The position numbers and the translations under genes were made by a program. A DNA stretch of 35,229 bases from Xenorhabdus griffiniae (GTDB lineage: Bacteria; Pseudomonadota; Gammaproteobacteria; Enterobacterales; Enterobacteriaceae), in contig NZ_LDNM01000087.1 of the NCBI RefSeq assembly GCF_001028135.1, forward strand, positions 1-35,229. Direction: 5' to 3'. The notes below the pieces were generated by a model, which saw only the letters and a program-made list of their open reading frames with translations, was not told the DNA's origin and searched no databases. Every line of letters begins with the position of its first letter. Positions within the stretch are counted from its first letter, which is position 1. Below, in pieces: positions 4,570-33,566 of the stretch.

Positions 4570-5160
4570 TTATTGCGCCAAATTTATGCCGATATTGCTG
4601 ACTTCCGCCTCACGGAGATCAGTCCTTAATCCTTTAATTAATTCGATGTCCCGTTCTTCGCAATCTGCCAACAAACGGTAAATCTCCCATTGAATGTCCC
4701 ATTCTTCCTCAATGGCAGGTAATACTTTTAACTCATCCTTGGTCATTTCTCTACCGGCCTGCGTCATTTCCAGCATAGCAACAGTACGGATGGATGTTTC
4801 ACTGACGGCTATTGCATGTTCTAACGTCGAGCCACTCAGACGAGAATGAATGACTTCACTCAATGCAATGCACGCATCAATCGCCGGATACACACCATAA
4901 ATATCATAATCTTCCGATGATGGGATAATGGCTTCCAATTTTTCCAGCTGATTATCAAAATTCACTTTTACATCTTTAACGACCAAAATTTCCCACACAA
5001 GATCCAGAATGCGGCGATATTGTACAGGGTCTGCAAATCTGCTTTGGAGACAAAATGCCTGATAATTTGGATACATCCGCTCACATAGACTAGCCATAAA
5101 AGTCAAATGTTGCCAACTTTCGAGTTTCTCCAACCGCAGATGGATCGGGTTTCTTAACAT
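4570..5160 (-). CDS. yjaG: YjaG family protein, DUF416
   Basis: This is a 196-residue soluble protein of unknown function, the same length as E. coli YjaG and similar from end to end: MLRNPIHLRLEKLESWQH at the start, GVYPAIDACIALSEV in the middle, and EEWDIQWEIYRLLADCEERDIELIKGLR near the end. It looks largely helical and acidic, with no signal peptide or membrane segment. It follows nfi on the same strand after 76 bp, as in the E. coli hemE-nfi-yjaG order. The ribosome site is weak. The identification is firm; no biochemical role can be given from the sequence. Confidence 0.93.
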   Translation of the reverse strand: MLRNPIHLRLEKLESWQHLTFMASLCERMYPNYQAFCLQSRFADPVQYRRILDLVWEILVVKDVKVNFDNQLEKLEAIIPSSEDYDIYGVYPAIDACIALSEVIHSRLSGSTLEHAIAVSETSIRTVAMLEMTQAGREMTKDELKVLPAIEEEWDIQWEIYRLLADCEERDIELIKGLRTDLREAEVSNIGINLAQ

Positions 5161-8285: not shown

Positions 8286-10940
<2,655 letters not shown>

Positions 10941-10947
<7 letters not shown>

Positions 10948-11726
10948 ACGATCAAGAATTTATGCGTTACAGCCGCCAATTACTGCTGGAAGACATTGGT
11001 CCCGGAGGACAAGAGAAATTAAAAGCCAGCAAAGTGCTGGTTGTCGGTTTGGGGGGATTAGGATCGCCGGCTGCGCTCTATCTCGCGGCCGCAGGGGTAG
11101 GAAACCTTTATCTGGCAGATGATGACACGTTGCATATCTCAAACCTGCAACGCCAAATTATCTATCGCAGCGCAGATATTCCTGCCAACAAAGCCCAATT
11201 AGCCGCAAAACAACTGGCTGAACTAAACCCACAAATCCATATCACTGCACTTACTGAACGGCAAGATCGCAAATCTTTGGTTAACGCTGTCAGCCAAGTC
11301 GATTTGGTCTTGGATTGCTGCGACAATATGGCAACTCGCCATGCCATCAATGCCGCCTGTATTGCAGAAAATAAACCTCTCATCAGCGGCAGTGCCGTCG
11401 GTTTTAGTGGACAATTAATGGTATTGACTCCTCCCTACCAGCACGGTTGCTATGCCTGCCTCTATCCTAATCAAGAAGAACCTCACCGAAATTGTCGGAC
11501 AGCCGGTATCTTAGGCCCTATCGTTGGGATCATCGGCACCTTGCAATCATTGGAAGCCATAAAAATGCTGACAGGTCTTTCTTCTCCCTTAAACGGAAAA
11601 CTCCGGCTGTTTGATGGCAAGCAGCAAAGCTGGAGCACATTACAGCTTACCCGTTCATCACAGTGCCCAATTTGTGGTGCTACCAGACAAACCGATAAAA
11701 AGCGGTTAGGAAAAGAGGTCGCATGA
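10941..11726 (+). CDS. thiF: ThiS adenylyltransferase (E1-like)
   Basis: ThiF adenylates the C-terminal glycine of ThiS so sulfur can be loaded as a thiocarboxylate. The 261-residue protein has the E1-type nucleotide loop [19 protein letters not shown] at about 38-56, the [16 protein letters not shown] motif, the conserved [20 protein letters not shown] carrying the Cys equivalent to E. coli Cys184, and zinc-type cysteine pairs (CYAC, CPIC). It is ThiF rather than MoeB by context: thiS follows with a 4-nt overlap. Confidence 0.96.
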
Positions 11727-11938
11727 ACATTATCGTCAACGATCAACCCATGACACTGAGTGCCCCCATGACAGTGCAACAATTTCTGGAACATCAATTG
11801 CTGGAACCGATAGAACGCCCGCAATCAGGTACTGCTTTGGCTATCAATCAAACCATTATTCCGCGTTCAGAATGGCAAACCCATCAGATTAATGACGGGG
11901 ACACTATCTTGCTGTTTCAGGCCATTGCGGGTGGCTGA
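11723..11938 (+). CDS. thiS: Sulfur carrier protein ThiS
   Basis: ThiS is the ubiquitin-fold sulfur carrier for thiazole synthesis. The 71-residue protein has the internal [14 protein letters not shown] stretch and ends in the required Gly-Gly (LLFQAIAGG), where the thiocarboxylate forms. Its ATG overlaps the thiF stop (ATGA). It is five residues longer than E. coli ThiS, with the insertion in the middle. Confidence 0.97.
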
Positions 11939-11958: not shown

Positions 11959-12729
11959 ATGTTAAAAATTGCAGATACCACCTTCCAGTCCCGCCTATTT
12001 ACCGGAACAGGTAAATTTGCCAATGCAAAATTAATGATCGACGCGATCCGTGCTTCTGGCAGCCAATTGGTCACCATGGCAATGAAACGCATCGATCTCC
12101 ACGGCAATAATGACGATGGCATTCTTGCCCCACTGCAACAGTTAGGTGTCAGACTGCTACCCAATACTTCTGGCGCTAAAACTGCGGAGGAAGCGATCTT
12201 CGCCGCTCGACTCGCACGGGAAGCGTTGGGAACTCACTGGATTAAATTGGAGATCCACCCCGATGTAAAATACCTGCTGCCCGATCCGGTTGAAACCTTA
12301 AAAGGAGCGGAACAGCTAGTCAAAGAAGGATTTATCGTTCTACCCTATTGTGGCGCGGATCCTGTCCTGTGCCGCCGCCTGGAAGAAGTCGGCTGTGCTG
12401 CCGTGATGCCATTGGGTGCCCCTATCGGTTCAAATAAGGGGTTACTGACCCGCGATTTTCTACAAATCATCATCGAACAGGCTAACGTGCCCGTGGTGGT
12501 GGATGCCGGGATCGGCGCACCGAGCCATGCGCTGGCCGCTATCGAAATGGGGGCGGATGCTGTGCTGGTGAATACCGCCATCGCGGTTGCCCGCCATCCC
12601 GTTAAAATGGCACAGGCATTCAAAACGGCCATTGAAGCTGGCGAACTTTCACATCAGGCAGGCGTAGCAAGCCAGAAATCTTATGCTGAGGCTTCCAGCC
12701 CCCTGACCGATTTTCTGGGGGTATTATGA
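11959..12729 (+). CDS. thiG: Thiazole synthase ThiG
   Basis: ThiG condenses 1-deoxy-xylulose-5-phosphate, dehydroglycine from ThiH and ThiS thiocarboxylate into the thiazole phosphate. I chose ATG 11959 ([20 protein letters not shown]), giving 256 residues as in E. coli. CGGAGG lies 8 nt upstream, and an in-frame TTG at 11941 precedes that site, so it is not the start. Landmarks are [33 protein letters not shown] with the Schiff-base Lys, and PLGAPIGSN. It overlaps thiH by 4 nt (ATGA). Confidence 0.98.
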
Positions 12730-13850
12730 CAAACCGAACATTCAGCCAACGCTGGCAACAACTGGATTGGGATGACATCACCTTACACATCAACAGTAAA
12801 ACATCGCGGGACATTGAACAGGCACTAAACAGTACTCGCTTGACGTTGGATGACTTTATGGCCCTGCTCTCCCCTGCGGCCCTGCCTTATCTTGAACCGC
12901 TCGCCCAACGCGCACAACAACTGACTCGCCAACGTTTTGGTCATACCGTGGGATTTTTTATCCCACTCTATCTTTCCAATCTGTGTGCCAACAACTGCAC
13001 TTATTGTGGTTTTTCCATGAGCAATCACATTAAGCGCAAGACCCTCAATGAACAGGAGATTGAGGCAGAATGTCTTGCGCTGAAAAAACGGGGATTTGAG
13101 CATATTCTGCTGGTGACCGGAGAACACCAAAATAAAGTTGGCATGGCTTATTTTCGTCGCTATCTTCCCCTGATCCGCCGCCATTTCAGCTCTGTCTCAA
13201 TGGAAGTTCAGCCACTGGCGCAAGAAGAATATGCTGAACTGAAAACATTGGGATTGGATGGCGTGATGGTCTATCAGGAAACCTACCATCAACCCAGCTA
13301 TCAACTGCATCATCTGAAAGGCAAAAAGCAGGATTTCCACTGGCGACTGGAAACACCGGAACGCCTTGGTCGAGCGGGAATTGACAAGATTGGACTAGGC
13401 GCTTTGATTGGGCTATCCCACCATTGGCGAACAGATTGTTATATGGTGGCTGAACACCTCTTTTTCCTGCAAAAACAGTTCTGGAAAAGCCGTTATTCCC
13501 TCTCTTTTCCTCGACTACGTCCCTGTGCAGGCGGTATAGAACCCGCTTCTTTAATGAATGAAGCCGAACTGGTACAACTGATTTGCGCTTTCCGCCTATT
13601 GGCACCGGATGTAGAGCTGTCTCTGTCTACCCGTGAATCACCCTTTTTTCGTGATCACGTTGTTCCTTTTGCGATCAACAATATCAGTGCAGGTTCAAAA
13701 ACCCAGCCGGGCGGTTATGCCGATGGACACCACGAATTGGAACAATTCGCTCCCCACGACAATCGTTCTGTTTTTCAGGTCGCCAAAGCGTTGATTAAAT
13801 CGGGTTTACAGCCCGTCTGGAAAGATTGGGACAATTATTTAGGTCGATAA
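12726..13850 (+). CDS. thiH: 2-iminoacetate synthase ThiH (radical SAM tyrosine lyase)
   Basis: ThiH cleaves tyrosine with SAM to give dehydroglycine and p-cresol, supplying ThiG. The 374-residue protein (E. coli 377) carries the radical SAM CX3CX2C cluster as C87, C91 and C94 in [12 protein letters not shown], then VTGEHQ, EVQPL and YQETYH around the barrel, and [11 protein letters not shown]. Presence of ThiH rather than the glycine oxidase ThiO indicates the anaerobic-compatible tyrosine route. It is the last gene of the operon; a 15-bp perfect inverted repeat follows about 90 bp downstream. Confidence 0.98.
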
Positions 13851-13938: not shown

Positions 13939-13974
13939 AACCATTAATGTGCAGGAACATGCACATTAATGGTT
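13939..13974. terminator. Perfect 15-bp inverted repeat between convergent thiH and DUF1349 gene
   Basis: AACCATTAATGTGCA (13939-13953) and TGCACATTAATGGTT (13960-13974) form a perfect 15-bp stem with a 6-nt loop. It lies between the stops of two convergent genes, so a bidirectional terminator is the simplest reading. On the minus strand it is followed by CTTTTA; no clear T-run follows on the plus strand. A further AATCATAA/TTATGATT pair (13921-13928, 13973-13980) flanks it and partly competes with it. Confidence 0.65.
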
Positions 13975-13989: not shown

Positions 13990-14586
13990 CTAACTTAAAT
14001 CATGCAGGTGCTTTTTCAACGATGACGTGAGACTAAATTCTGAAAACCTCACCTGTAAGCCTTCACGTTCTGGTGAGCAGCACATCGCCCCGACAAAAAT
14101 CCGCTGATTGCCAACGGCAAAAGGGGACAATCGCAGTAACGGCCATATCACGCCATCCGTGGAATACTGCAACCGGATAGCCCCATCATGGTAAGTCAGC
14201 CGTAACCAGAATTTCTCCGGAGTACCGGGAAAAATCCCCATGGCCCAGTCCGAACATCCATTTGTCAATACACTGCCGATGGTTGCCTGACCATCAGAAT
14301 GTTCAACGCCCGCTTTTAGCCAATGTTGCTCATCCACCAATAACATCACACCAGCCTGATCATATAATTGTTCAAACTGGCCTTCGATACAAAACTGGAA
14401 GGTAAAACCTTCTTCAAGTTTAAAATCATCAATATAGCCACCAAATACATGACCACTATGACGCTGAAAACCATACCATGTATCACGCCAGAAATCGGTT
14501 TTATTGTCTGTCGTGACATGAAGTTCATTATCCTGACACCGCCATAAAGCAGGTTCATTCAACCAATAGCATTGCTGCAAATTCAT
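13990..14586 (-). CDS. DUF1349 family protein (concanavalin-like beta-sandwich)
   Basis: A protein of about 198 residues resembling the DUF1349 family (enolase-regulation-like, predicted concanavalin/glucanase-type beta-sandwich). Seen: aromatic-rich beta-like stretches (FWRDTWYGFQRHSGHVFGG, YDQAGVMLLVDEQHWLKAG, KFWLRLTYHDGAIRLQYSTDG) and no signal peptide, so it is probably cytoplasmic. The biochemical role is unknown; the fold suggests carbohydrate or small-ligand binding. I chose ATG 14586; a TTG one codon upstream is equally served by the AGGG site. It is last in the minus-strand cluster, 14 nt after the MFS gene, so the two are almost certainly co-transcribed. Confidence 0.8.
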   Translation of the reverse strand: MNLQQCYWLNEPALWRCQDNELHVTTDNKTDFWRDTWYGFQRHSGHVFGGYIDDFKLEEGFTFQFCIEGQFEQLYDQAGVMLLVDEQHWLKAGVEHSDGQATIGSVLTNGCSDWAMGIFPGTPEKFWLRLTYHDGAIRLQYSTDGVIWPLLRLSPFAVGNQRIFVGAMCCSPEREGLQVRFSEFSLTSSLKKHLHDLS

Positions 14587-14600
14587 CAATATTTACCCTG

Positions 14601-15752
14601 TTATTTCCTGGTGGGATTAACCAAACCATATCCCGCTAACAATGAAAGGGAAAGCACAGCTATACAAGCAAAAGCACCATGTAATGTTACCAGATGAGCC
14701 AAACCACCAATAATTGCCGGCCCAAGTAAAATCCCTGAATATCCCATCGTAGAAACGGCAGAAACTGCTAACGCATCAGGCATCACTTTCTGCTGACCTG
14801 AAGCGGTGAAAAACATCGGCGCCAAATTGGATAATCCCGCACCTATCATCAGGAAAGAAATGCCCAACTGAATTGGGCTGGTTGCCAGATAGATCAGCAC
14901 AAACCCTGACGACGCCAAAATCGCACTACCTAAAAATACGCGTCGATATCCACATGCCGCAATGATCTTGTCACCTAAAAATCGTCCCGCCGTCATGGTA
15001 ATGGCAAACAGCGTATAGCCAAAACCCGCCTGATGACTATTCATGTTATGCACACTACTTAATAAGATCCCGCTCCAATCCAACATGGAGCCTTCCATCA
15101 GGTAAACCACAAAACAAAGCGAACCAATCAGGATAACAATGCCGCGAGGTAAGGCAAAAAAGGGCGTTTCTTCTGTTTCGGCGTTATCCAGCATACCATT
15201 CCACGTTGGCAACAATAGCAGAATAACAAGCGCCACTACGACAATGGTGGCCTGAAATGGCGAGATCCCCAAAAACAACAATAAGCTGACCGTACCCGCT
15301 CCCGCAATTCCCCCCAGGCTGAACAATGCATGAAAGCCCGACATAATTGGTTGGTGGACTCTTTTCTCAATATTAACCGCATGGATATTGATCACCACAT
15401 CTGTCGCCCCAATTCCCATACCAAATACAAACAAAGCGCAAGCCAGTGTCAATGGGGTAGAGAGCACATTTAGCCCCGGCAATATTAAAATAGCCAATAA
15501 TGCGAAAAAGGTAAAAATCTTTCGGCAGCCAAAGCGAGTTGCCAACATTCCCGCTATTGGCATCATAATAAAAGAACCGATACCAAACACCAGTATCAGA
15601 AGCCCCATTGAACCATCATCCAGCCCAAACCGTTCCTTTACCAATGGGATCAGCGGTGCCCAACTGGCAATACTGAATCCCGCAATAAAAAATGAAACGC
15701 GCGTTGCTATAACAGGCTGCTTTATTGAAGAAACTGTATATTCCTCAGACAA
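14601..15752 (-). CDS. MFS transporter, YbjJ-like
   Basis: A major facilitator protein of about 383 residues with roughly 12 hydrophobic segments. The loop 2-3 motif A is degenerate (GMLATRFGCRKIF). GFHALFSLGGIAGAG and MGYSGILLGPAIIGGLA resemble the E. coli YbjJ family, whose substrate is unestablished. A TTG at 15752 fits best as start because GGAGG lies 7 nt upstream; the longer frame from TTG 15770 would place that site inside the gene. It lies 98 bp after the HAD gene, across a tandem repeat and a strong hairpin, and directly before the DUF1349 gene. Context suggests import of the substrate or export of the product of the neighbouring enzymes; the sequence does not decide which. Confidence 0.85.
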   Translation of the reverse strand: MSEEYTVSSIKQPVIATRVSFFIAGFSIASWAPLIPLVKERFGLDDGSMGLLILVFGIGSFIMMPIAGMLATRFGCRKIFTFFALLAILILPGLNVLSTPLTLACALFVFGMGIGATDVVINIHAVNIEKRVHQPIMSGFHALFSLGGIAGAGTVSLLLFLGISPFQATIVVVALVILLLLPTWNGMLDNAETEETPFFALPRGIVILIGSLCFVVYLMEGSMLDWSGILLSSVHNMNSHQAGFGYTLFAITMTAGRFLGDKIIAACGYRRVFLGSAILASSGFVLIYLATSPIQLGISFLMIGAGLSNLAPMFFTASGQQKVMPDALAVSAVSTMGYSGILLGPAIIGGLAHLVTLHGAFACIAVLSLSLLAGYGLVNPTRK

Positions 15753-15785
15753 TTTGAATCCTCCAATCAATATCCTTCAAAAAAC

Positions 15786-15813
15786 CATATCTTTTAAACC
15801 ATACCTTTTAAAC
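15786..15813. repeat. Two 14-bp tandem repeats
   Basis: CATATCTTTTAAAC (15786-15799) and CATACCTTTTAAAC (15800-15813) are adjacent copies differing at one base; a third, poorer copy lies toward the MFS start. They sit between the HAD-MFS hairpin and the MFS ribosome site. Their role is unknown. Confidence 0.7.
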
Positions 15814-15814
15814 A

Positions 15815-15844
15815 ATGCCTTCCGCCGGAACTGGCAGAAGGCAT
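15815..15844 (-). terminator. Strong hairpin between HAD and MFS genes
   Basis: ATGCCTTC (15815-15822) and GAAGGCAT (15837-15844) pair perfectly, with an inner GCC/GGC pairing across a one-base mismatch. On the minus strand it follows the HAD stop and is followed by TTGTTTAAAA, a weak T-rich tail. It probably acts as a partial terminator or mRNA 3'-end stabiliser, dividing the cluster into a three-gene upper part and a two-gene lower part. Confidence 0.55.
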
Positions 15845-15868
15845 CAATTATGGGTCTTCAATAAAAAA

Positions 15869-16537
15869 TCACTTTATATTTATTCCTGAAAACTGGGGAA
15901 TATCCGTTAGCTTCTCAATAACACGGGAAGCCTGCTCATACTGCTCTGCTACCGACAATGCATGAGGCCAGGCATATATCCACGCAATACCCGCCTGCTT
16001 TGCCGCCGCAATCCCCAAATCGGTATCTTCAATCACCAACGTTTGCTGAACATCCATCTTTTTCAATTTCAGCATAGCCAAATAAGGATCAGGGAAGGGT
16101 TTAGTTCTTTCCACATCATCGCCAGAAATCAAAACAGGTGGTTCATGGAGATCCAACAAACTAAGATTGGCCAAACACACATTGCGCGGCGCAGTGGAAA
16201 CAAACCCAAAGTTAGTACCATTTTGTTGCAAAGCCGCAATCAAATCAGTGATCCCCGGCCGCAAATAATGCGCAGACAATTTTTCTTGATAATGCAAAAT
16301 GATTTTTTCGGTAATGTCTTGTTGCATTGATGGCGGAAGACCAACCTTATTTAAGGTTTCCGCCAGACTTAGCCCAATCAATTGCTGAGGTTGGATATCA
16401 CTTAATTGAATATGTGTCTGTTCTTCCAATACGTTACCTGATTCATTACCTAATACATCAAGCAATACGTCAAAATGCAGTTGTTCACTATCGACAATAA
16501 CACCGTCGATATCAAAAATGACATTACATCTATTCAT
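15869..16537 (-). CDS. HAD-superfamily phosphatase/phosphomutase, beta-phosphoglucomutase-like
   Basis: A protein of 222 residues with the haloacid dehalogenase core: nucleophile motif FDIDGVIVDSE (D9 and D11), motif II VSTAP (S114-T115), motif III Lys in KPFPDP (K146) and motif IV VIEDTDLGI (E170, D171). The helical cap between residues about 16 and 90 is that of subfamily I enzymes such as beta-phosphoglucomutase and sugar- or polyol-phosphate phosphatases. I chose ATG 16537 because AAGGA is 8 nt upstream; an in-frame ATG at 16543 is too close to it. It lies 25 nt after the dehydrogenase, so it probably acts in the same pathway, perhaps dephosphorylating a sugar-phosphate intermediate. The substrate is inferred only. 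Confidence 0.88.
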   Translation of the reverse strand: MNRCNVIFDIDGVIVDSEQLHFDVLLDVLGNESGNVLEEQTHIQLSDIQPQQLIGLSLAETLNKVGLPPSMQQDITEKIILHYQEKLSAHYLRPGITDLIAALQQNGTNFGFVSTAPRNVCLANLSLLDLHEPPVLISGDDVERTKPFPDPYLAMLKLKKMDVQQTLVIEDTDLGIAAAKQAGIAWIYAWPHALSVAEQYEQASRVIEKLTDIPQFSGINIK

Positions 16538-16562
16538 CGCCATCGTCCTTCAAAATATTCAC

Positions 16563-17624
16563 TTATTTTAGGTCAGAAATACGAATTAATACCTTACAGT
16601 TTGGTGTATTGAGAGGAACTTGCGTTTTCGATGCAATATCACAACCGACAGTAAGAAAAGCCTGTTGGTAATCTTTGAAATCAAAAATCTGGCTGATAAA
16701 ACGCTTAACAGGGATTGCGCCGTCACGGATCATAGTATAGGCACGTTCAAAACTATTATTCAGCGAATCAATGGAGCCTATGACTGAAAGACTTTTATCT
16801 GCAATTTTCATAATGTCCAAATTGGCCTGTTTATCTTTCAGGGCAACATTTAATAATTTTCCACCCGGTGCCAGATGATCAAAAATATATTCAGTCAACT
16901 GCCCCGTTGTATCCACACATAAATCAATCAGGGCTGACGTATCACCATATTCCTGCATTAATGCTTCATTAAAGTCAGAATACAACTGGCATTCCGGTGG
17001 CAAATTATTTCTTGCAAACTGAATTCGGTTTTCATTCTTTTCAACCATAAAGGCTTTTACGCCCCGCTCATGCAGCGCCCAAATGTACAGCATCCCCATC
17101 GGGCCAGCACCTGCCACTGCCGCACGAATATTCGTGTGAGTGATCCCAAGCTTATCCACGCCGGTTATTGTGCAGCTTAGTGGTTCAGTCAATGAAGCCT
17201 CCTCCATACTGACATGATCATCCAGCTTGATAAGCAAATTTTCTTTTGCCAAATATTGCCCTGCGAAAGCGCCATCATAGGAAACCCCAGCTTCTGTTCC
17301 CAGTTTTCTCTCACAATGGTTAGGGCTGCCAGTCTGACACATCCGGCAATGCCCACAAAAGTAAGTCGGGTTGACGACAACACGATCCCCCGCCTGAAAT
17401 TGAGTAACACCGCTGCCAATTTGGGATACCACGCCAGTGGTTTCATGCCCCAAAGTGGTGCCCGGAATAGCAACAGGATAAGCACCTGTGATAATTCCCA
17501 CATCCGTGCCACAAATACCACACACTGCAATGTCAACAACAACATCATCGGGTTCAATACAAGACAAAGGTTCAACTTGCTGGATTTCAACATCCCAAGT
17601 TTGATGATATTTAAGTGCTAACAT
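16563..17624 (-). CDS. Zinc-dependent medium-chain dehydrogenase (sorbitol/threonine dehydrogenase-like)
   Basis: An NAD(P)-dependent alcohol dehydrogenase of 353 residues. The catalytic zinc ligands are C38 (CGICGTD), H60-E61 (GHE) and E147 in TEPLSC; the structural zinc site is C90, C93, C96 and C104; the Rossmann loop is GAGPMG at 172-177. The EPL motif and Glu ligand are typical of the sorbitol/threonine/polyol dehydrogenase branch. GGAGG lies 7 nt before the ATG, which overlaps the aminotransferase gene by 7 nt, so the two are translationally coupled. The substrate is unknown; pairing with an aminotransferase suggests an amino-alcohol or amino-polyol. Confidence 0.93.
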   Translation of the reverse strand: MLALKYHQTWDVEIQQVEPLSCIEPDDVVVDIAVCGICGTDVGIITGAYPVAIPGTTLGHETTGVVSQIGSGVTQFQAGDRVVVNPTYFCGHCRMCQTGSPNHCERKLGTEAGVSYDGAFAGQYLAKENLLIKLDDHVSMEEASLTEPLSCTITGVDKLGITHTNIRAAVAGAGPMGMLYIWALHERGVKAFMVEKNENRIQFARNNLPPECQLYSDFNEALMQEYGDTSALIDLCVDTTGQLTEYIFDHLAPGGKLLNVALKDKQANLDIMKIADKSLSVIGSIDSLNNSFERAYTMIRDGAIPVKRFISQIFDFKDYQQAFLTVGCDIASKTQVPLNTPNCKVLIRISDLK

Positions 17625-18871
17625 GATACAGCCTCCGTACGTACTTGTGCGCGGGTCGTTAATTCTGAGAACGTCAGATCCAGTTTATGGAGAATTTCTG
17701 CCAAATGTTCCTGTGTGCAAATCAGTGGAGGACGCACTTTGATTGCCCTGCCTTTACCATAACGGGAACCACGCAAGATCAAATGATGGCGGTTAGCCGT
17801 CGCGATCACCTGCGCGGCAAAATCTGGGTTTGGTGTGTCAAAGCCATACATATACCCCACCCCTCTCACTCCTGTGATCTCTGGATACCGCTCCTGTAAT
17901 TTCAACAAACCATCACGCAGATGGGCTTCATTTTGTTGCACATTTTCCAAAACGTGATCATCTTCAATAATATCGATAATTTCGTTGAGGGCGACCAAAG
18001 AGAGCGGATTAGCACCAGACGTACTGGAATGTTCGAATGATTCCAGGATATCCAGTGAATGATGCATCAACACCCCCCCCGTTGGAATACCGATACCCCC
18101 CGCTCCTTTGGCGAAAACGATGATATCTGGCTCCAGCTCTTTGGCATAACCCGTCGATGCGAAGAACGTACCAGTGCGACCAAAACCTGTTTGTACTTCA
18201 TCCGCGATAATGATGATGCCATGCTGACGACAGATTTCTCTGAGTTTCCGGTAGAAAGCCACAGGGAAAACCATGTTGCCGCCATTTCCCTGAATCGGTT
18301 CAATAATCAGACAGGCAATATTGTCATTAGAGCCTAATTGAATAAATTGTTCTAAATCGACAAATTGTTCTTCACTCGGCTGTGATTGCCCTGCCAAGAC
18401 ACTGGCTGGCGTAGGAATTTTTATTGAACCATCAATATTGATATGGAAGTCTTTAATCCTGAATGCATTGCCAGAAATTTGTGCGGTTGCAAGAGATTGT
18501 CCATGATGTGCAAGAAAGAGTGAAATAACGCCTGAGCGTCCCGTTGATTTTTGTGCTATGCGGATAGCACATTCAACCGCACCCGATCCAGAAACATCTC
18601 GCAACCAGATGCGATCGACGCCTTCAGGTGTATATTTAATTAATTTACTCAAAATATATTGTGACATTTCACGGGTATAAGCCGAACTCAAATGGGTACA
18701 TCTATCAATCTGTTGTTTGAGTTTTTCTGTAATCCGATCATTCGTATAGCCGAGCGGCAAATTAAACGTTCCCGATGCCGCATCAATATATGTTTCACCA
18801 TCAATGATCAAGTAAGGGCCATGACCAATAAAACGAGAAAGCATGCTTTCAAGATGGTTTCTATTTTCCAT
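17618..18871 (-). CDS. Class III PLP-dependent aminotransferase
   Basis: A fold-type I aminotransferase of 417 residues. PLP-site features: VSGSGAVE at 93-100 (phosphate loop), HHGQS at 122-126, EPIQGNGG at 191-198, DEVQTGFGRTG with the pyridine-N-binding Asp at 224, and the Schiff-base Lys K255 in FAKGAGG. It is class III (ornithine/GABA/DAPA type), but I do not recognise it as any E. coli enzyme. It is first in the minus-strand cluster and overlaps the dehydrogenase by 7 nt. Likely partners are a keto-sugar or keto-cyclitol, judging from the polyol-type dehydrogenase and HAD phosphatase next to it; GABA-type or diamine substrates remain possible. Confidence 0.93.
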   Translation of the reverse strand: MENRNHLESMLSRFIGHGPYLIIDGETYIDAASGTFNLPLGYTNDRITEKLKQQIDRCTHLSSAYTREMSQYILSKLIKYTPEGVDRIWLRDVSGSGAVECAIRIAQKSTGRSGVISLFLAHHGQSLATAQISGNAFRIKDFHINIDGSIKIPTPASVLAGQSQPSEEQFVDLEQFIQLGSNDNIACLIIEPIQGNGGNMVFPVAFYRKLREICRQHGIIIIADEVQTGFGRTGTFFASTGYAKELEPDIIVFAKGAGGIGIPTGGVLMHHSLDILESFEHSSTSGANPLSLVALNEIIDIIEDDHVLENVQQNEAHLRDGLLKLQERYPEITGVRGVGYMYGFDTPNPDFAAQVIATANRHHLILRGSRYGKGRAIKVRPPLICTQEHLAEILHKLDLTFSELTTRAQVRTEAVSC

Positions 18872-18894
18872 AATGACTCACCACTATTAGTTAT

Positions 18895-18923
18895 ATTAAA
18901 CAATAAGTTAGGTTTAACAACAA
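18895..18923 (-). promoter_or_regulatory. Candidate promoter of the accessory cluster in an AT-rich gap
   Basis: On the minus strand TTTAAT (-10, 18895-18900) follows TTGTTG (-35, 18918-18923) with a 17-bp spacer, 24 bp before the aminotransferase ATG. The whole 18872-19105 gap is extremely AT-rich, with A/T tracts, a 7-bp TTAATAC/GTATTAA stem near 19049-19071, and one good half-site for CRP (TGTGA near 18974). No strong GC-rich terminator follows malT, so some malT read-through is possible. H-NS-type silencing is a guess from base composition. Confidence 0.35.
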
Positions 18924-19105
18924 AAAATACCGACTGTGATGAGACTAGATTATGCTCATTAAAATTTTATTTCGATCACATAAATGCCATAAAAAACATT
19001 ATGCAAAATTAAAATTTAATTTAAATTTTTAAAATCATACAGTTATTTATTAATACTTATTAAATGTATTAAACACAGAAAAAATCACGTTTAAAAATTA
19101 GCAAG

Positions 19106-21820
19106 TTAAACCCCCAATCCCATCATTCGCATTAATTTCCGGGCCTGTTGAATGGCCTCTTGTCGATGAGCAATTCCCATTTTTTGGTATAAATTACGTA
19201 TATGCGTTTTTATCGTGGTTGCTGCCACATCCAGTTCTGTCGCAATTTGATCGTTACTGTAACCAGAATAAATTAACCCCAGCACCTGCCATTCACGCTG
19301 AGTGAGTGGACTATTACGGATAAGCTCAGGCACGTCTGGATGAGTGAGTAGTTGTTCTACAAACGTTTCGTCAAAATGGGCAAATTTATGCCGGTGCTGT
19401 CGATTGATTTCCCGGAGAATACGCTGGGCTCTATGCTGTTCCATTTCAGGCAAGATATTCAGTTGGATAAGCTGGCGCAATTGCAAAGCCATCAACTCAC
19501 CTTCAATAACAAAATGGCTGATGAACCCTGTGCAGTTAGCCAAATTCAACGCTTCCATCAACACATCCTGAGCCTCAGCCTTACGTCCAAGCTGCCAATA
19601 AAGCAAATTACACAACAGAAGATTACGATTCAAATCGCTGACCAATGCCAATTTTCTGGCATATTCATTCAGTTTCACCAGAATAGATTCAGCTTCCTCA
19701 TGCTGATCCAGTAAGATTTTAGCCCGTGCAATATTGCGCCATTGATTTTGATTGAAATGGTTACAAAAGCTCTCTGGTTGCTCTGCCTGTACCAACCATT
19801 GAGTCAAGGAATCACTATCTTCTAAAGTCTGCCAAATAATGACTCGCAACTCGTCAGTGTTCGTTCGCCAATCGCGGTGATACTGCCCATTACTCAGTAA
19901 ATTTTCACAACGGGTCAAGTAACGGCGAGCGTTATCAATATTACCCCGGACCAAAGAACATTTCGCCAGTTGGGTAAGACATTGTAATTGCTGCTGTGGC
20001 TGGTAATTGTCCAACACTTCCAACCCTTGACGCGCCACCTCTTCTGAGTCATCAATTCTAGCCCAACACCACAAAAGTTGTGAACGTATCCTCAGCAAAA
20101 ACTCATGCATTGGCAACTGTTCCAAATGCTGCTCACGGATTAAATCAAAAGCATGGGATTGGGTATCATAAGCCGCCTGCAAATAACCTTGTGCCAGTAA
20201 AATTTCACTTTGTTGCAATAACGCCCATAAAGCATAGTGATAAACATGACAAAGGCGGGCAAGCTGCTCCGTCTGCTTCATTAATGTCAATGCACTGACC
20301 AACTGACCATTGCAATGCAATACTTCCCCTTTTACTGACATCGCTACAATACGACCATATTGATTATTTGGCAGTAAGTTCTCCAACGCCTTTTCGGCCA
20401 ACGCCTCAGCATCGGCGGGCCGTCCATCATTCATCGCCACTTGGGCTCTCAGAGCATCAAACTCTGCCAGCAATTCCGGTTCGATGGCGATTTGCTTCTG
20501 CTTTAGTGATTGCTCTGCCTGATTCAATAATGCATTGACCTCATAGTAGCGATGCTGGCTTTGTGCCAGCCACGCTTGCAACAGTACCAGGCGAGGACTT
20601 TCCAGCAGCTGTTCATACGGCAGTGCATTCATACACTCTCCCAACAGGGAAAGTTTACTGTGGTTAAATAACTCCCAGGCATGTTGCAACAAAATATCCC
20701 GTAACAAAATAGTATCTCCCGCTGCCAGGGCGTGATGAATAGCCTCCCCGGGATATCCCTGCATCAGCCATCCTTGCACGGCGGCTCGATGTAATTCGGG
20801 CAATTTTGCCGCCATTTCCCATTGGCAACGTTGGCGAAGAAATGAAGCAAACAAAGGGTGAAAGCAGAACCACTCACCAGAATCATCCATTCGCTGAATA
20901 AACAACCCCTGCCGCTCAATGTCTTCCAGACGTTGCTGACCGTTTTCTTCTCCCGTCAGGCAGGTTATCAGCCCATCATTCATGGAGCGCAGGATAGAAC
21001 TATGCAACAAGAAATTCCGCGTCTTCTGATCTACTCGGTTTAAAACTTCATCTACAAGGTAATCAGCAAGATGGCTGGCATTAATTCCCGCAAGGCGCTT
21101 TGCTGAACTTTCAGTCGTATTACCGGATTGACGGGCAGAAAGGGCAATCAGTTGCAAGGCCGTTGCCCACCCAGCTACGTCATTACATAACTGTTCGCAG
21201 TGTTCAGGCTCCAATGGATTGGCTAACCGCTTGGCAAAAAATTGTTGTGTTTCCTGATAATCAAAAGCCAACTGCTGACTATCAACCTCCAATAACTGTT
21301 CACGCACGCGTAAGTTGGCAATTCCCAACGAGGGCAAATGGCGTGATAGCACCACTAATGTTAAATTTTCGGGTTGGTGGCGGAGAAAAAAGCGCATTGC
21401 TTCATGAATAATCCCATTCACGATCAGATGATAATCATCAATCACCAAAAAAATCGGTTGCTGCCATTCGTTAAGCTCAATAAATAACTGCGCAAACAGT
21501 GTAGATAAGCTGGCATATTGATGTTTCTGGGCCAGTATCTCACTTTTCACACAGTGTCCCTGCGTTGCCTGCTGAATGGCCGCAATCAGATAGCTCGCGA
21601 AACGTTCTGGCTGGTTGTCACTATCATCAAGAGAATACCACCCTAGATGATCCTGTCCGGCAGCCCATTGTGACATCAAGGTCGTTTTGCCATACCCGGC
21701 GGGACTGGTTATCAATACCAGTCGATAATCCTGAATTTCATTGAACTTTTCCAACAGACGCTCCCGCATAACCATATTATTGAGTCGAAGGGGGCGACTG
21801 AGTTTCGATGGGATAAGCAT
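19106..21820 (-). CDS. malT: Maltose regulon transcriptional activator MalT
   Basis: MalT is the ATP- and maltotriose-dependent activator of the mal genes. The 904-residue protein (E. coli 901) has the STAND NTPase Walker A SPAGYGKT at 39-46, the Walker B region LVIDDY, superhelical repeats through the middle, and a C-terminal LuxR-type HTH ([21 protein letters not shown]...[14 protein letters not shown]). I chose ATG 21820 ([10 protein letters not shown]), the E. coli start, with GGGGAG 7 nt upstream; the frame runs open 12 codons further without support. It is divergent from malP, as in E. coli, and followed on the same strand by the accessory cluster. Confidence 0.98.
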
Positions 21821-21931
21821 TAAATTTCTCCCCTCACACGCAATGAATAAAAGCAACGAATAAAACTGATACCTGAATTCTGTTTGACACGATTAAGTCA
21901 CTTACACATTAACATTCCTTTACGACCAACA

Positions 21932-22002
21932 AATGTAGAGAAACGCCCATCTTTTGCAAACAAGTTGATTAATTTCATTGTGTTAAATTGCACCTTGTCA
22001 CA
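21932..22002 (-). promoter_or_regulatory. Candidate malT promoter with CRP site
   Basis: On the minus strand TTGCAA (21954-21959) and TACATT (21932-21937) are separated by 16 bp, placing a start near 21925. A perfect left CRP half-site, AATGTGA, with a weak right half is centred near 21994.5, about 70 bp upstream. CRP activates E. coli malT from a site centred at -70.5, so the geometry agrees although the right half is poor. Confidence 0.5.
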
Positions 22003-22074
22003 TTCTTTGGGTGCAACCTTGCTATTTTTCTATGAAATTGCGAAAAAGCTCGAAAGAAATAGCTACGCCCTTGC

Positions 22075-22107
22075 GCTCCTCCCTGCGAATATTTTCACGG
22101 GATGATG
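22075..22107. promoter_or_regulatory. Candidate MalT boxes upstream of malP
   Basis: Two matches to the MalT box GGGGA(T/G)GAGG, each 8 of 10: AGGGAGGAGC on the minus strand (22075-22084) and CGGGATGATG on the plus strand (22098-22107). The second lies about 80 bp before the malP ATG, which would put a MalT-dependent start near 22140, leaving a leader of about 50 nt. MalT promoters need no good -35, and none is seen. Confidence 0.5.
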
Positions 22108-22187
22108 TTTCCCAAGCCACTAACCTTCAGCATATCCCTGTAAATAATTATCTAAACTTTCCTCAGTCAGTGACAGGATGCAACGCC

Positions 22188-24650
22188 ATGCAACTATCCA
22201 CATTAAAATCATCGACATTAAATCAAGAACCCACATTAGATAAAAACCCGAAACTCGATAACGCTTTATTTCAGGCCGCACTCACACGCCAGTGGCAATA
22301 TTTCGGTCTCAACGCAGCTCAGGAAATGACGCCACATCAGTGGTGGCAGGCCATTAGCGCAGCCGTATCAGAATTACTCCCCCTATCCCATCAGCAAAAC
22401 CGTGCCAATCCATCCTCTGACAATCAACGCCACGTGAACTATATCTCGATGGAATTTCTGATAGGCCGACTGACAGCCAACAATTTATTGAATCTTGGTT
22501 GGTATAACGATATTCAGTCTTATCTGGCAGAAAATGGCATCATTTTGAGTGACGTGCTGGAAGAAGAAACCGATCCCGCATTGGGCAATGGTGGGTTAGG
22601 AAGGCTAGCAGCCTGTTTTCTCGACTCAATGGCAACGCTCAATCAACCTGCTATCGGGTATGGTCTCAATTATCAATATGGTCTTTTCCGCCAATCCTTT
22701 GAAAATGGGCAACAAATTGAAACACCTGATAATTGGGAACGCGAGTCCTACCCATGGTTTCGCCATAACACGCAATTAAAAGTCAGCGTCAGTTTTGGTG
22801 GCGAAATCGTGACAACGGCCGATGGTCATGAAACCTGGGTTCCCGCATTTAGCCTGATTGGTGAAGCCTGGGATTTACCCGTGATTGGGTATAATAATGG
22901 GGTAACCCAACCACTTCGTTTGTGGCAGGCAACCTACGATACCCCCTTTGATCTGTCACTTTTCAATGACGGGCAGTTCCTGCATGCCGAACAACAAGGC
23001 ATTGAAGCCGCCAGTCTGACCAAAGTTCTCTACCCGAATGATAATCATCAGGCAGGTAAACGACTGCGCCTGATGCAACAATATTTCCAGTGTGCTTGTG
23101 CCGTGGCAGATATTCTGCGCCGCCATCAGCAGGCAGGGCGAAAAATAGAAGCGCTAGCACAATACGAAGTTATCCAGCTTAATGATACTCATCCCACTAT
23201 CGCAATCCCTGAAATGATGCGTCTTCTGCTTGATGAATACCAGTTAAGTTGGGAAACCGCATGGGAAATCACAGGAAAAACTTTCGCCTATACCAACCAT
23301 ACTTTGCTGCCAGAGGGCCTGGAACGTTGGGATGAACAATTGATGAGTGCACTTCTGCCACGCCATCATCGCATCATCCAGGAAATCAACCGACGCTTTA
23401 AAACAACCGTGGAACAAATTTGGCCTGATAACCGACAAATCTGGGAAAAATTGGCAGTTATCCATGACAATCAAGTCAGAATGGCTAATCTGTGTGTTGT
23501 CGCCTGCTTTGCCGTCAACGGGGTCGCAGCCCTGCATTCATCCTTGATCGTGACAGATCTGTTCCCTGAGTATCATCAACTGTGGCCAACTAAATTCCAC
23601 AATGTGACTAATGGTGTCACTCCTCGTCGTTGGTTAAAACAGTGTAACCCTGCACTCTCTTCATTAATTGACCAAACATTAGGCCATGATTGGGTAAATG
23701 ATCTGGCTGCCTTAGAACAAATCGAATCTTATGCCGATGATTCAGCTTTCCGCGAAACTTATCGCACGGTTAAGCAAGATAACAAAATTCGCCTGTCTAA
23801 CTATGTCAATAAGGTCATGGGGCTGAAAATTGATCCTAACGCCATTTTCGATATTCAGATAAAACGTCTGCATGAATACAAACGTCAACACCTGAACCTG
23901 CTCCATATCTTGTCACTTTATCGGCAAATTCAGGAAAATCCGGCCTTAGATATTCATCCTCGTGTTTTCCTGTTCGGTGCCAAAGCAGCGCCCGGTTACT
24001 ATCTGGCTAAAAACATCATCTCGGCCATCAATCATGCCGCTGAAAAGATCAATCATGATCCAATCGTCCGTGAACGCATCAAAATTGCTTTTATCCCCGA
24101 TTACAATGTTTCCGCTGCGGAACTGATGATCCCAGCGGCTGATGTATCAGAGCAAATCTCTACCGCAGGTAAAGAAGCCTCCGGTACAGGCAATATGAAG
24201 TTAGCCTTAAATGGCGCACTCACTATTGGAACACTGGATGGTGCGAATGTCGAAATCGCCGAACACGTCGGAAATGACAATATCTTTATTTTCGGCAAGA
24301 CCGTGGAAGAAGCTAAGGCTTTACTGAACAGCGGATACAATCCGCAAGATATCCTTCAGCAGGATCACCATCTAAAGGCTATCCTTGACTCTCTCGCCAA
24401 GGGTGAGTTCAGTCATGGAGATGCGCACGCGTTTAATCTTATGTTACATAGCCTGACTGACGGCGGTGACCCTTATTTAGTGCTGGCTGATTTTGCCTCT
24501 TATTGCCACGCCCACCAGCAAATTGACACTCGATATCGCGATGCCCAAAGCTGGACACGCAGTACTGTACTCAATACCGCCCGAATGGGTAACTTTAGTT
24601 CTGACCGCGCTATTCAGGATTATCAACAACGTATCTGGCAAACTAACTAG
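22188..24650 (+). CDS. malP: Maltodextrin phosphorylase
   Basis: MalP phosphorolyses alpha-1,4-glucans to glucose-1-phosphate. The 820-residue protein is colinear with E. coli MalP (797) from [16 protein letters not shown] on. Family landmarks: [56 protein letters not shown], and the PLP-lysine motif [16 protein letters not shown] chose ATG 22188 with AGGA about 10 nt upstream. The frame stays open to 22011, but that stretch contains the MalT boxes and has no phosphorylase similarity. Even so, the N-terminus is about 20 residues longer than in E. coli. malQ follows after 9 nt. Confidence 0.97.
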
Positions 24651-24659
24651 GGGTTTTGT

Positions 24660-26804
24660 ATGGAAAAAAAATGCCTCAATGATTTGGCAACTGAGGCCGG
24701 CATTGTCAGCGAATATATTAATGCCTATGGGAAACCTCAGGCGATCCCTGCTGAAATCAGGTATCGGATATTGGAAGCCATGAGTACAGATATACCGGTC
24801 GGGAGGCCGGTTTCTCATTTACGCGCCTCCCCCTTACCCAATGTTAAGGTGGTTATTCAGGAACAAAGAATAATCCTGCCTCTGGAGGATACAAATAATT
24901 ACCAGTGGCAGATACACACTGAACAAGGGCAGATATTTCAGGGTTACTGCCAACATCAGCTCACGTTGCCTGCCAATCTCCCCCTGGGATACCACACGCT
25001 GAACTTGATATCGGAGGCGAAACCAGAAACTGGCGCTTGGCAATACTCGACACAACTTATTGTTGCCCCTAAACGTTGTTACGAACCCGATGCCATAACA
25101 CGTGGAGAAAAACTTTGGGGGGCTTGTGTCCAGCTCTATACCCTGAGATCAGAAAATAACTGGGGAATTGGTGATTTTGGCGACCTGAAATATATGCTGC
25201 AAGAACTGGCACAGCGTGGTGGGGCCTTTGTTGGCCTGAACCCTCTTCATGCCATCTATCCGGCAATGCCTGAAAACGCCAGCCCTTACAGTCCGTCTTC
25301 CCGCCACTGGCTCAATATCATCTATATTGCTGTAAATCAGATAGACGACTTTAATTGTAGCGCCGAAGCACAAAAGTGGTGGCATTCAGCGGAAACACAA
25401 TCCAAACTCCAGCAAGCCCGTCAGGCAGAATGGGTTGATTACACCAGAGTAATGTCTCTAAAAATGGCTGCATTGCATCTGACTTATCCGCAATTTAAGC
25501 GCCGCTCTGGCGATGATCCCCAACAGATCGCTTTCCAACAGTTTGTGACCAAAGGAGGCAAAAATCTTTATTATCAAGCTGTTTATGATGCCCTACACCA
25601 TAAGTTATATGGGGAAAATAATGTCTATTGGGGCTGGCCTGTATGGCCGGAAGAATACCGTGAACCAGAAAATGACGCGGTTAAGGCATTCTGCCATTCA
25701 TATCCACAGGAGATAGCGTTTTTCCTTTGGCTACAGTGGGTAGCTGATACCCAGCTTGCTGAGTGCTTCACTACCAGCCAAACCCATCACATGCCAATTG
25801 GTATTTACCGTGATCTTGCCGTCGGTGTTGCACAAGGGGGTTCAGAAACCTGGTGTAACCGAAGCATCTATTGCACTAAAGCATCCGTCGGAGCGCCCCC
25901 CGATATTCTGGGACCACTGGGGCAAAATTGGGGACTTCCGCCAATGAATCCCCATGTATTAAAAACTCAGGCCTATCAACCTTTCATTGAATTATTGCGC
26001 AGCAATATGCGTCATTGCGGTGCATTACGCATCGATCATGTGATGTCACTGCTCAGACTCTGGTGGATACCACAAGGAGAAACTGCCGACAAAGGCGTTT
26101 ATGTCCATTATCCGGTTGACGATCTGCTGGCAATATTGGCGTTGGAAAGCCAGCGCAATCATTGCCTGGTGATAGGCGAAGATTTAGGTATTGTGCCAGA
26201 AGAAATTGTCGATAAGTTACGGGACAGGGGTGTTTATTCCTATAAGGTATTTTATTTCGAACGCAATGAGCAAGGTGAATACCGTTCTCCCGATGAATAT
26301 CCCGAGCAAGCGATGGCAACCATTACTACCCATGACTTACCTACTTTACGCGGATTCTGGCAAAATAAAGATTTAACCTTAGGAGAAGATATCGGTTTAT
26401 ACCCCGATAAAACTCTTCTTGTTGATTTATATTCGGAACGTAAACGCTGCAAGCAAGCGTTATTAACCAGTTTAAACCGTCACGGCTATTTATCAGTAGA
26501 ATCGCTCAAGACAGATATCTTCTCCTCGTTGCAGGGAACGGCATCACTGAAACAAACAGAATATCCGATGTCACATGTTATAAATCAAAGCATACACCGC
26601 TATATAGCTCATAGCGCCTGTGCCTTATTAGGATTACAACCTGAAGATTGGCTGGATATGGAACACCCCGTTAATATTCCTGGCACAACAGAGGAATATC
26701 CCAACTGGCGACGAAAACTTACCGCAACATTGGAAACTATGTTTGTGGATGCTCATATCAATGACTTGTTACAAACAATCGGAGAGTGCCGAAAACAGGG
26801 TTAA
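24660..26804 (+). CDS. malQ: 4-alpha-glucanotransferase (amylomaltase)
   Basis: MalQ disproportionates maltodextrins, releasing glucose and lengthening chains for MalP. The 714-residue protein (E. coli 694) is a GH77 enzyme: LWGACVQLYTLRSENNWGIGDFGDL, LNPLHAIYP, the nucleophile region GALRIDHVMSLLRLWW, the acid/base region VIGEDLG, and ATITTHDLPTLRGFW. GGGG overlapping the malP stop serves the ATG 9 nt later. The extra length relative to E. coli lies in the N-terminal domain. It converges with malG across a repeat element and a terminator. Confidence 0.97.
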   Translation: MEKKCLNDLATEAGIVSEYINAYGKPQAIPAEIRYRILEAMSTDIPVGRPVSHLRASPLPNVKVVIQEQRIILPLEDTNNYQWQIHTEQGQIFQGYCQHQLTLPANLPLGYHTLNLISEAKPETGAWQYSTQLIVAPKRCYEPDAITRGEKLWGACVQLYTLRSENNWGIGDFGDLKYMLQELAQRGGAFVGLNPLHAIYPAMPENASPYSPSSRHWLNIIYIAVNQIDDFNCSAEAQKWWHSAETQSKLQQARQAEWVDYTRVMSLKMAALHLTYPQFKRRSGDDPQQIAFQQFVTKGGKNLYYQAVYDALHHKLYGENNVYWGWPVWPEEYREPENDAVKAFCHSYPQEIAFFLWLQWVADTQLAECFTTSQTHHMPIGIYRDLAVGVAQGGSETWCNRSIYCTKASVGAPPDILGPLGQNWGLPPMNPHVLKTQAYQPFIELLRSNMRHCGALRIDHVMSLLRLWWIPQGETADKGVYVHYPVDDLLAILALESQRNHCLVIGEDLGIVPEEIVDKLRDRGVYSYKVFYFERNEQGEYRSPDEYPEQAMATITTHDLPTLRGFWQNKDLTLGEDIGLYPDKTLLVDLYSERKRCKQALLTSLNRHGYLSVESLKTDIFSSLQGTASLKQTEYPMSHVINQSIHRYIAHSACALLGLQPEDWLDMEHPVNIPGTTEEYPNWRRKLTATLETMFVDAHINDLLQTIGECRKQG

Positions 26805-26824
26805 TAACTTACTGAGCTAACAGC

Positions 26825-26922
26825 TATACTCGATAAACTTCAAGTTGCAAGACGACGCGAAGCCTTATATTTCCCCGCTGCGCGGGGAAATATAACACGC
26901 ATCTTGAAGTTGGATTGGTATA
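26825..26922. mobile_element. MITE/REP-like palindromic element, copy 1 (98 bp)
   Basis: An imperfect palindrome with ends TATAC...GTATA, sub-terminal inverted AACTTCAAG/CTTGAAGTT arms, and a perfect 14-bp central stem (TTATATTTCCCCGC with GCGGGGAAATATAA, 3-nt loop) at 26865-26895. A second copy at 34591-34695 differs by two substitutions and a 7-nt indel. It is non-coding and small, with terminal inverted repeats and TA at both ends, so a non-autonomous transposon (MITE) is likely. It lies between convergent malQ and malG and may help terminate both. Confidence 0.85.
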
Positions 26923-26947
26923 TATGTAGCCAAGTAGCCAGAAAACG

Positions 26948-26979
26948 CCCCAATCATATATAGCTAAATATGATTGGGG
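26948..26979 (-). terminator. Intrinsic terminator of malEFG operon
   Basis: CCCCAATCATAT (26948-26959) and ATATGATTGGGG (26968-26979) form a perfect 12-bp stem with an 8-nt loop, 7 bp past the malG stop. On the minus strand it is followed by CGTTTTCT, giving a moderate U-rich tail. Confidence 0.75.
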
Positions 26980-26986
26980 GAGAGGA

Positions 26987-27877
26987 TCAGCCTTTCACGC
27001 CTCCCGACGTTAGCCCACCGACTAACCAACGTTGGGCAAGTAAGAAAACCGCCGTGATAGGGATAGCAGAAAGCACAGCCGCAGCAGCAAAATCCCCCCA
27101 GAGATAGTTCTGTGGGTGAAGATATTGCTGCATTCCCACTGCCAGCGTGTAATTGTCCACATCACGTAATAATAGAGATGCAACAGGTACTTCGGTAATC
27201 ACGCCAATAAACGACAAAATAAATACGACAGCCAATATAGGTACAGAGAGTGGCAACAGTATCAAACGGAAAATTTGCCACGATGTCGCCCCATCCAACA
27301 TAGCGGCTTCTTCCAGAGAACGATCTATCGTTTCGAAATAACCTTTTATCGTCCATACATGCAGAGCAATTCCGCCCAAATAGGCGAAAATCACACCACC
27401 GTGGGTATTGAGACCAAGAAAAGGAATATATTCTCCCAATCTATCAAACAAGGCATATAGTGCCACCAAAGAAAGTACCGCCGGAAACATTTGAAAAATC
27501 AACATCGCTTTGAGTAAGGTACTTTTTCCACGAAAGCGCATTCGAGCAAATGCATAAGCACACGTCGTTGATAATGCCACAATGCCAGCGGCAGTAATCA
27601 AGGCAACCTTGACAGAATTCCAAAGCCATTGCATGACCGGAAATGGGGGAAGCATGACGTGTCCATCAGCAGACTCCACGCTATAACCAAGTGCCAGCTT
27701 CCAGTGTTCCCATGAAACGGTGTCTGGAATCAGGTTGCCCGTAGCAAAATTACCCGGACGCAAAGAAATAGCAATGACCATCAGCAGAGGAAACAAAATC
27801 GTGGCAATAAAAGCCAGCATTAATACATGTGTTCCCCATACCCGCCATCGTTGCGATTTGGGTTGTACCATCGCCAT
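26987..27877 (-). CDS. malG: Maltose/maltodextrin ABC transporter permease MalG
   Basis: An inner-membrane subunit of the MalFGK2 importer, 296 residues, as in E. coli. About six transmembrane segments; the EAA coupling motif that docks on MalK is [22 protein letters not shown], about 190-211. The N-terminus MAMVQPKSQ and C-terminus GGVKG are conserved with E. coli. It is the last gene of malEFG, 12 nt after malF. Confidence 0.98.
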
Positions 27878-27889
27878 CTTCTTTTCTCC

Positions 27890-29446: not shown

Positions 29447-29503
29447 CTTGCACTTCCTGTTACCAACAATTGTGACTATCCAACATCATCACAATAAGAG
29501 CTA

Positions 29504-29526: not shown

Positions 29527-29535
29527 GTCACTCGT

Positions 29536-30735: not shown

Positions 30736-30824
30736 CATTCCGCCTTTTTCATTTGTTAGTTCAAGATAATTATCTTTGTTACATCACGATAAAATGGCAC
30801 CAGTGTGCAATCAATGTAAAAAAG

Positions 30825-33565: not shown

Positions 33566-33566
<1 letters not shown>

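Follow-up and report, generated by a model that had tools for sequence, protein, structure and literature searches.

A predicted azasugar operon between thiH and malT in Xenorhabdus griffiniae, and retention of its DUF1349 gene in relatives without the other four genes

The 35,229-nt stretch of DNA analysed here (all of contig NZ_LDNM01000087.1 of Xenorhabdus griffiniae, NCBI RefSeq assembly GCF_001028135.1; hereafter the window) carries a five-gene operon encoding a class III aminotransferase (AT), a zinc-type dehydrogenase (DH), a HAD phosphatase, an MFS transporter and a DUF1349 protein, which, judged by its sequence, very probably makes and exports an azasugar (iminosugar), i.e., a sugar-mimicking enzyme inhibitor. 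In the proposed pathway, a ketose phosphate, either fructose-6-phosphate or a pentulose phosphate, would be aminated at C2 by the AT and then dephosphorylated by the HAD enzyme, and the DH would oxidise a hydroxyl of the amino-polyol to a carbonyl, after which amine and carbonyl would close the ring spontaneously and the MFS protein would export the product. We infer this chemistry, the export and the role of DUF1349 discussed below from homology, tree placement, motifs, co-conservation and purifying selection, which are observed. An azasugar pathway was also the core of the original prediction for this DNA, and at the family level it was supported by the AT tree, by 22 of 27 signature residues in the AT and by the groups of the DH tree. 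Such a prediction is not new for these bacteria, as passages of the survey by Beal & Horenstein (2021, PMC8382821) list 31 azasugar cluster hits in Xenorhabdus and 25 in Photorhabdus, next to an Arsenophonus strain and five Erwinia hits. The two gene trees, the residue signature and the selection analysis put it on firmer ground for insect-associated enterobacteria, and the absence of a four-cysteine (4-Cys) loop from the AT, the retention of DUF1349, an intercistronic hairpin and Erwinia plasmid copies go beyond those passages (the hairpin, the Cys loop and the plasmid copies were not looked up in the literature). An operon this small could be removed as a unit to test the purpose of bacterial azasugars, which PMC8382821 names, in the passages seen, as an open question, provided that its product inhibits trehalase or glucosidase and is released in insects.

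Relatives were collected from named genomes by an AT-only scan with two patterns built on a 146-aa segment of five ATs, and the best 80 of 219 loci were retained, counts over which are not frequencies in nature; 42 of these loci entered the AT tree and residue test, and 75 entered the DH set before this was thinned. The window AT matched GabT1 of Bacillus velezensis with 257 bits (36.5% identity), vs. at most 152 bits (31%) for six other PF00202 proteins of its own genome (a seventh, a partial match, was left out). In the AT tree (66 rows), 60 azasugar-type rows split from these six class III ATs with an SH-aLRT support of 99, and the window AT was located in a 30-row clade (SH-aLRT 100) with ATs of Clostridium, Eubacterium, Marinomonas, Catenovulum and actinomycetes. 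The enzyme thus groups with GabT1-type azasugar ATs and apart from generic class III enzymes, and the clustering with GABA, diamine or ornithine enzymes that had been named beforehand as the refuting outcome did not occur. Signature residues were derived from 44 core rows and eight generic outgroup sequences, with enterobacterial rows excluded (ValM of validamycin biosynthesis was among neither these eight nor the six tree outgroups). Three other enterobacterial ATs carried 22–25 of these residues, whereas the eight generic controls, each left out in turn, shared 1, 1, 3, 3, 4, 5, 5 and 9 of 28–31. K255 of the window AT aligns with the GabT1 lysine that we take to be the PLP lysine.

Regarding gene content, Pfam gave PF00202 (AT), PF08240 and PF16912 (DH, with a PF00107 match slightly below cut-off), PF13419 (HAD), PF07690 (MFS) and PF07081 (DUF1349), matching the families first proposed, and the three enzymes correspond to the published family list of the azasugar three-gene cluster (3GC), i.e., PF00202, PF00107/PF08240/PF16912 and a phosphatase of PF13419, PF00459 or PF12710 (PMC8382821, in part). 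Among the best 80 loci, blastp tags within 7 kb marked a DH in 77, a phosphatase in 62 (46 HAD and 16 inositol-monophosphatase), a transporter in 52, DUF1349 in 18 and a glycosyltransferase (tagged by a Streptomyces gene that Pfam calls family 2) in 16; the B. velezensis locus was among them, with its AT, phosphatase and DH genes arranged as published for gabT1-yktC1-gutB1. The DH holds GHE at 59, CX2CX2C...C at 90 and TEPLSC at 146, motifs to which we ascribe zinc roles, and in the DH tree (56 of 87 rows after thinning) the main groups were the same as in the AT tree. There, the enterobacterial branch stood beside a Clostridium/actinomycete group, then Paenibacillus and others, then the Bacillus type, so that the proposed comparison with GutB1 placed the latter on a far branch. 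Both trees are quick trees with long-branch warnings, in which the L068, L076, L082 and Cylindrospermum rows are unsure. The HAD protein carries DxDG at 11, ST at 116, K at 148 and ED at 172, presumably the catalytic motifs of its family, and has the phosphorylated-carbohydrate phosphatase TM_1254 as nearest solved relative. A HAD phosphatase instead of one of the inositol-monophosphatase type, as had been suggested for this operon, is also the layout of Chitinophaga and Paenibacillus in the passages of PMC8382821.

The AT was found in 26 of 30 genomes of its own genus (own genome included; 83–100% identity, E 1e-60) and in 0 of the 49 other genomes of that sample, while a family-wide draw found it in 18 of 392 genomes and 9 of 154 genera (E 1e-65). 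A class-wide DH search (369 genomes, E 1e-45) returned the own genome as the only match, and an order-wide one (148 genomes) two matching genomes, own included. Of 18 neighbourhoods read, AT and DH occurred together in 18, HAD in 17, a matching MFS gene in 16 and DUF1349 in 14. Across two genera, all 27 neighbourhoods compared, the window among them, had the same five-gene order, as did locus L180; together these cover every one of the 26 genomes of the own genus with an AT and two of genus g166, and such conservation indicates that the cluster is more than chance. In all of these loci malT lies upstream, at a distance of ~2 kb in g166, where in L042 the malT-AT gap holds another MFS gene (10618–11814) on the opposite strand. 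Downstream, thiH is not always adjacent: it was inside the first stretch in 20 of 25 genus loci and in L180, 2–3 kb beyond DUF1349 in three genus loci, and not within 14 kb in G013, and in G027 the contig ends. All five genes, in order, were also present on plasmids of Erwinia tracheiphila, with an IS91-family transposase gene ~0.6 kb upstream of the operon, and of Candidatus Erwinia impunctatus. The latter seemingly has two copies, i.e., the plasmid copy L034 (OZ024667.1) with five whole ORFs and the chromosomal L049 (G172), with the AT and the MFS gene each broken into two ORFs.

The window genes were compared with those of L038, L159, L168 and L171, for which 18 of 20 comparisons were computable (two DH comparisons were saturated). 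The dN/dS values ranged from 0.04 to 0.23 over the five genes, with many dS values above 1, and were 0.04–0.08 for AT, 0.07 for DH (2 of 4 computable), 0.09–0.23 for HAD, 0.06–0.09 for MFS and 0.07–0.10 for DUF1349; ThiH and MalT, with L141 and L142 included, gave 0.03–0.07.

DUF1349 was found in 28 of the 30 genomes of the genus, and the four that lack the AT are G001, G004, G006 and G024. In G001 and G004, an intact DUF1349 ORF lies 81 and 53 nt beyond malT (tblastn identity 82% and 77%), with no AT, DH, HAD or MFS match between malT and thiH (tblastn, E 1e-3), and the window DUF1349 compared with these two yielded a dN/dS of 0.07. At the thresholds used, neither malT nor DUF1349 was matched in G006, and thiH, malT and DUF1349 were all unmatched in the incomplete G024 (82%). 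A ThiH and MalT tree joined G004 to L041 and L171 (100/100), both with the full operon, and placed G001 apart from it, near the operon-bearing L039, L040 and L167 (90/93); the DUF1349 tree placed G001 likewise, weakly, and left G004 open at the base of the genus. The simplest reading is that AT, DH, HAD and MFS were lost twice separately, each time sparing DUF1349, which hints at protection rather than synthesis, although continued selection would be less well supported if either loss were recent. The stretch from the lone DUF1349 gene to thiH in G001 holds three more ORFs (L141, 2170–4944), the first with an HExxH-type motif and no Pfam match, and the third, by our impression, resembling an ADP-ribosylating toxin A subunit.

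DUF1349 is more likely to protect the producer or bind the product than to be a core enzyme. As a tentative proposal for its exact role, it may give self-protection in HAD-type azasugar clusters, as a concanavalin A-like protein that would shield the producer's sugar enzymes from the inhibitor or sequester the latter, and that would be kept under selection in non-producing relatives as their neighbours still produce, like orphan immunity genes. DUF1349, of unknown function according to Pfam and with 3o12 and 3mep as solved relatives, would thereby gain a concrete, testable role. It is rather doubtful that, within an azasugar pathway, DUF1349 would instead be a fourth biosynthetic enzyme, e.g., a C2 epimerase or C1 reductase, both of which passages of PMC8382821 call unidentified for deoxynojirimycin (DNJ). 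Its position as last gene of the operon in 27/27 loci, its presence near the AT in 18 of the best 80 named loci and its weak match to the carbohydrate domain GH43_C2 fit such an enzyme, but it stayed intact where the other four genes are gone, was untagged in 16/16 loci of the inositol-monophosphatase type (which includes B. velezensis) and was unmatched next to 4 of the 18 clusters whose neighbourhoods were read. PF07081 is listed among phosphatase annotations in the passages of PMC8382821, which in our own reading is DUF1349 taken for a phosphatase. By name, DUF1349 returned nothing further bearing on the operon among open-licence PMC papers. Its homologues occur on 272 PLSDB plasmid records, mostly of Rhizobium, Sinorhizobium and Agrobacterium.

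Several points weigh against an azasugar product. The 36.5% identity of the window AT to GabT1 is below the 40% edge of the network in PMC8382821, although a Clostridium AT connects the two (52% identical to the window, 44% to GabT1). Only 8 of 16 fixed positions of the published consensus SGNXFRXXXFPNXXXXXXXLXVPXPYCXRC were matched (SGN, FR, F and two prolines retained, FPN mostly and PYCxRC lost), a finder that misses some members by the paper's own account (PMC8382821, in part). The 4-Cys loop present in 44/44 core ATs was absent in 16/16 enterobacterial ATs, but it is not exclusive to azasugar ATs, since each of its columns also has a Cys in one or two of the eight generic sequences. Together, the low identity, the partial consensus and the missing loop indicate that the window AT is a diverged branch. 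Among the generic ATs, a Cylindrospermum ORF has as many as 9 of the 31 signature residues. Moreover, ValM of the aminocyclitol pathway to validamycin sits in the same AT network cluster as GabT1 in the passages of PMC8382821, and tree placement of the AT alone therefore does not fix the chemistry. Finally, the open-licence PMC papers searched contained no azasugar or related product for the Xenorhabdus/Photorhabdus branch.

The enzyme families of the operon are also found in catabolism, and an amino-sugar or amino-polyol could in principle be imported by the MFS protein and oxidised by AT and DH, with HAD recycling the sugar phosphate. The neighbouring maltose genes, an MFS transport direction that the sequence does not fix and the many rhizobial plasmids with DUF1349 homologues would suit such a pathway. 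We nevertheless regard it as improbable, since AT and DH both group with azasugar-cluster enzymes and AT-DH-HAD is the layout of known producer clusters (PMC8382821, in part). Furthermore, neither a regulator nor a sugar kinase gene was found among the operon's ORFs (ORF list, Pfam). A validamycin-like aminocyclitol pathway, in which a ValM-like AT would aminate a cyclitol ketone, is very improbable: the network cluster shared by ValM and GabT1, the best NCBIfam match of the DH (scyllo-inosose 3-dehydrogenase, 140 bits, far below the cut-off of 450) and a family-2-type glycosyltransferase homologue in 16 of the 19 nearest named loci are in keeping with it, but Pfam found no cyclase or nucleotidyltransferase in the operon, and the single PF01761 match in the draft genome (230 contigs) is presumably the shikimate enzyme, which leaves no spare (second) sugar-phosphate cyclase of that family.

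Between the HAD and MFS genes of the predicted azasugar operon, a stem scan of the 190 nt after the HAD stop in 27 loci revealed a hairpin, with a median score of 28.5 vs. a mean of 15.8, a 95th percentile of 22 and a maximum of 30.5 in mononucleotide shuffles. L039 (score 20) and L170 (11) fell below that 95th percentile, and in L040 and L166 the top stem had a different sequence, though in L166 a usual-type stem can be seen by eye. Over 16 chosen sequences, 93.8% of cells in the 12 pairs were paired, eight pairs had changed on both sides, and the covariation was 0.492 vs. 0.297 when shuffled (0/500) and no more than 0.224 on sliding; 40/500 shuffles reached the further pair types. In g166 a T-rich sequence follows the stem, and there the hairpin could act as an attenuator. 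The window hairpin was not listed by the terminator scan, and at gathering threshold the sole Rfam match in the window was a TPP riboswitch, with no family for this hairpin. It splits the operon into the enzyme genes and MFS-DUF1349. In the malT-AT gap, no terminator-like site was listed and alignment across relatives yielded no defensible motif, while the promoter scan found sites no more numerous than in shuffles, its two minus-strand sites in this gap included.

The ORF list bore out the predicted layout of five minus-strand ORFs over 13990–18871, with AT and DH overlapping by 7 nt (17618–17624), and NCBIfam the setting between ThiH (12726–13850, plus strand) and MalT (19106–21856, minus strand). 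The MFS gene probably starts at TTG 15752, which gives 383 aa, inside a listed ORF that reaches 15770, and DUF1349 at ATG 14586, inside one that reaches 14589, as judged from the sequence. Table 1 collects the features.

Table 1. Features of the predicted azasugar operon and its borders, in window coordinates.
Feature	Position	Strand	Basis
Class III (PLP) aminotransferase (AT), GabT1-like	17618..18871	-	PF00202 267 bits; tree; signature residues; K255
Zinc-type medium-chain dehydrogenase (DH), GutB1-like	16563..17624	-	PF08240/PF16912; tree; motifs
HAD (beta-phosphoglucomutase-like) sugar phosphatase	15869..16543	-	PF13419 96 bits; solved relative; motifs
Intercistronic RNA hairpin, 12 pairs, between HAD and MFS	15815..15844	-	Stem scan of 27 loci; covariation
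MFS transporter, probable exporter (direction inferred)	14601..15752	-	PF07690; 383 aa in several relatives
DUF1349 protein, proposed accessory/self-protection	13990..14586	-	PF07081 210 bits; GH43_C2 23 bits (weak concanavalin A-like)
Terminator-like hairpin, 15 pairs, directly 3' of DUF1349 (operon end)	13939..13974	-	
Gap from malT stop to AT start, 234 nt	18872..19105	-	

The operon lies directly downstream of malT, near maltose genes within 19106–34522 (phosphorylase, glucanotransferase, malF, malE, malK, malM), and co-regulation with maltose use is possible. Nine of ten other window proteins tested received a name (purH, purD, endonuclease V, hemE, NAD diphosphatase, MalF, MalE, MalK and MalM), the protein at 4570–5160 giving no match, and two more were a carbohydrate phosphorylase and a 4-alpha-glucanotransferase, fitting malP and malQ.

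Among known systems, the gsn cluster of Pseudomonas syringae, compared by description only, likewise has five genes, with GsnA as dehydrogenase, GsnC as phosphatase, GsnE as transporter and GsnD of unknown function, and makes galactosyrin, an iminosugar acting on the host (passages of preprint PMC11844564). It differs in having no aminotransferase, the RibD-like GsnB acting on an amine from the purine pathway, whereas the window operon has an AT and no RibD-like gene. The DUF1349 family goes unnamed in the passages seen of two HrpL-regulon papers. The B. velezensis gabT1-yktC1-gutB1 cluster (DNJ type) shares the AT family, a zinc dehydrogenase, a phosphatase and an MFS gene nearby, but has a phosphatase of the inositol-monophosphatase type, the order AT-phosphatase-DH, a GutB1 far off in the DH tree and no DUF1349 tag. 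The loci L052–L070 (actinomycetes, Clostridium and others) are, in both trees, the group closest to the enterobacterial branch, with DUF1349 in 9 of 19. Unlike the window, 16 of these 19 have a glycosyltransferase homologue, suggesting a glycosylated product, and those included in the residue test retain the 4-Cys loop. In the actinomycete relatives L036, L052–L063 and L070, AT-DH occurs with a family-2-type glycosyltransferase, and in some with DUF1349 and a MATE transporter; glycosylated azasugars or aminocyclitols are possible products.

The HAD-type 3GCs of Chitinophaga pinensis (DAB-1; compared by its published description) and Paenibacillus polymyxa have the same AT-DH-HAD order, a HAD phosphatase and an MFS neighbour (PMC8382821, in part). 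Compared with these, the window AT is without the FPN and PYCxRC motif parts and the 4-Cys loop, the MFS gene follows the enzyme genes, DUF1349 is inside the operon, and the HAD protein is only 27% identical to that of P. polymyxa. The plasmid copy of P. polymyxa encodes an AT and a DH 41% and 42% identical to those of the window, the latter annotated as gutB1, 2-amino-2-deoxy-D-mannitol dehydrogenase, and has a DUF1349 gene adjoining on the other strand.

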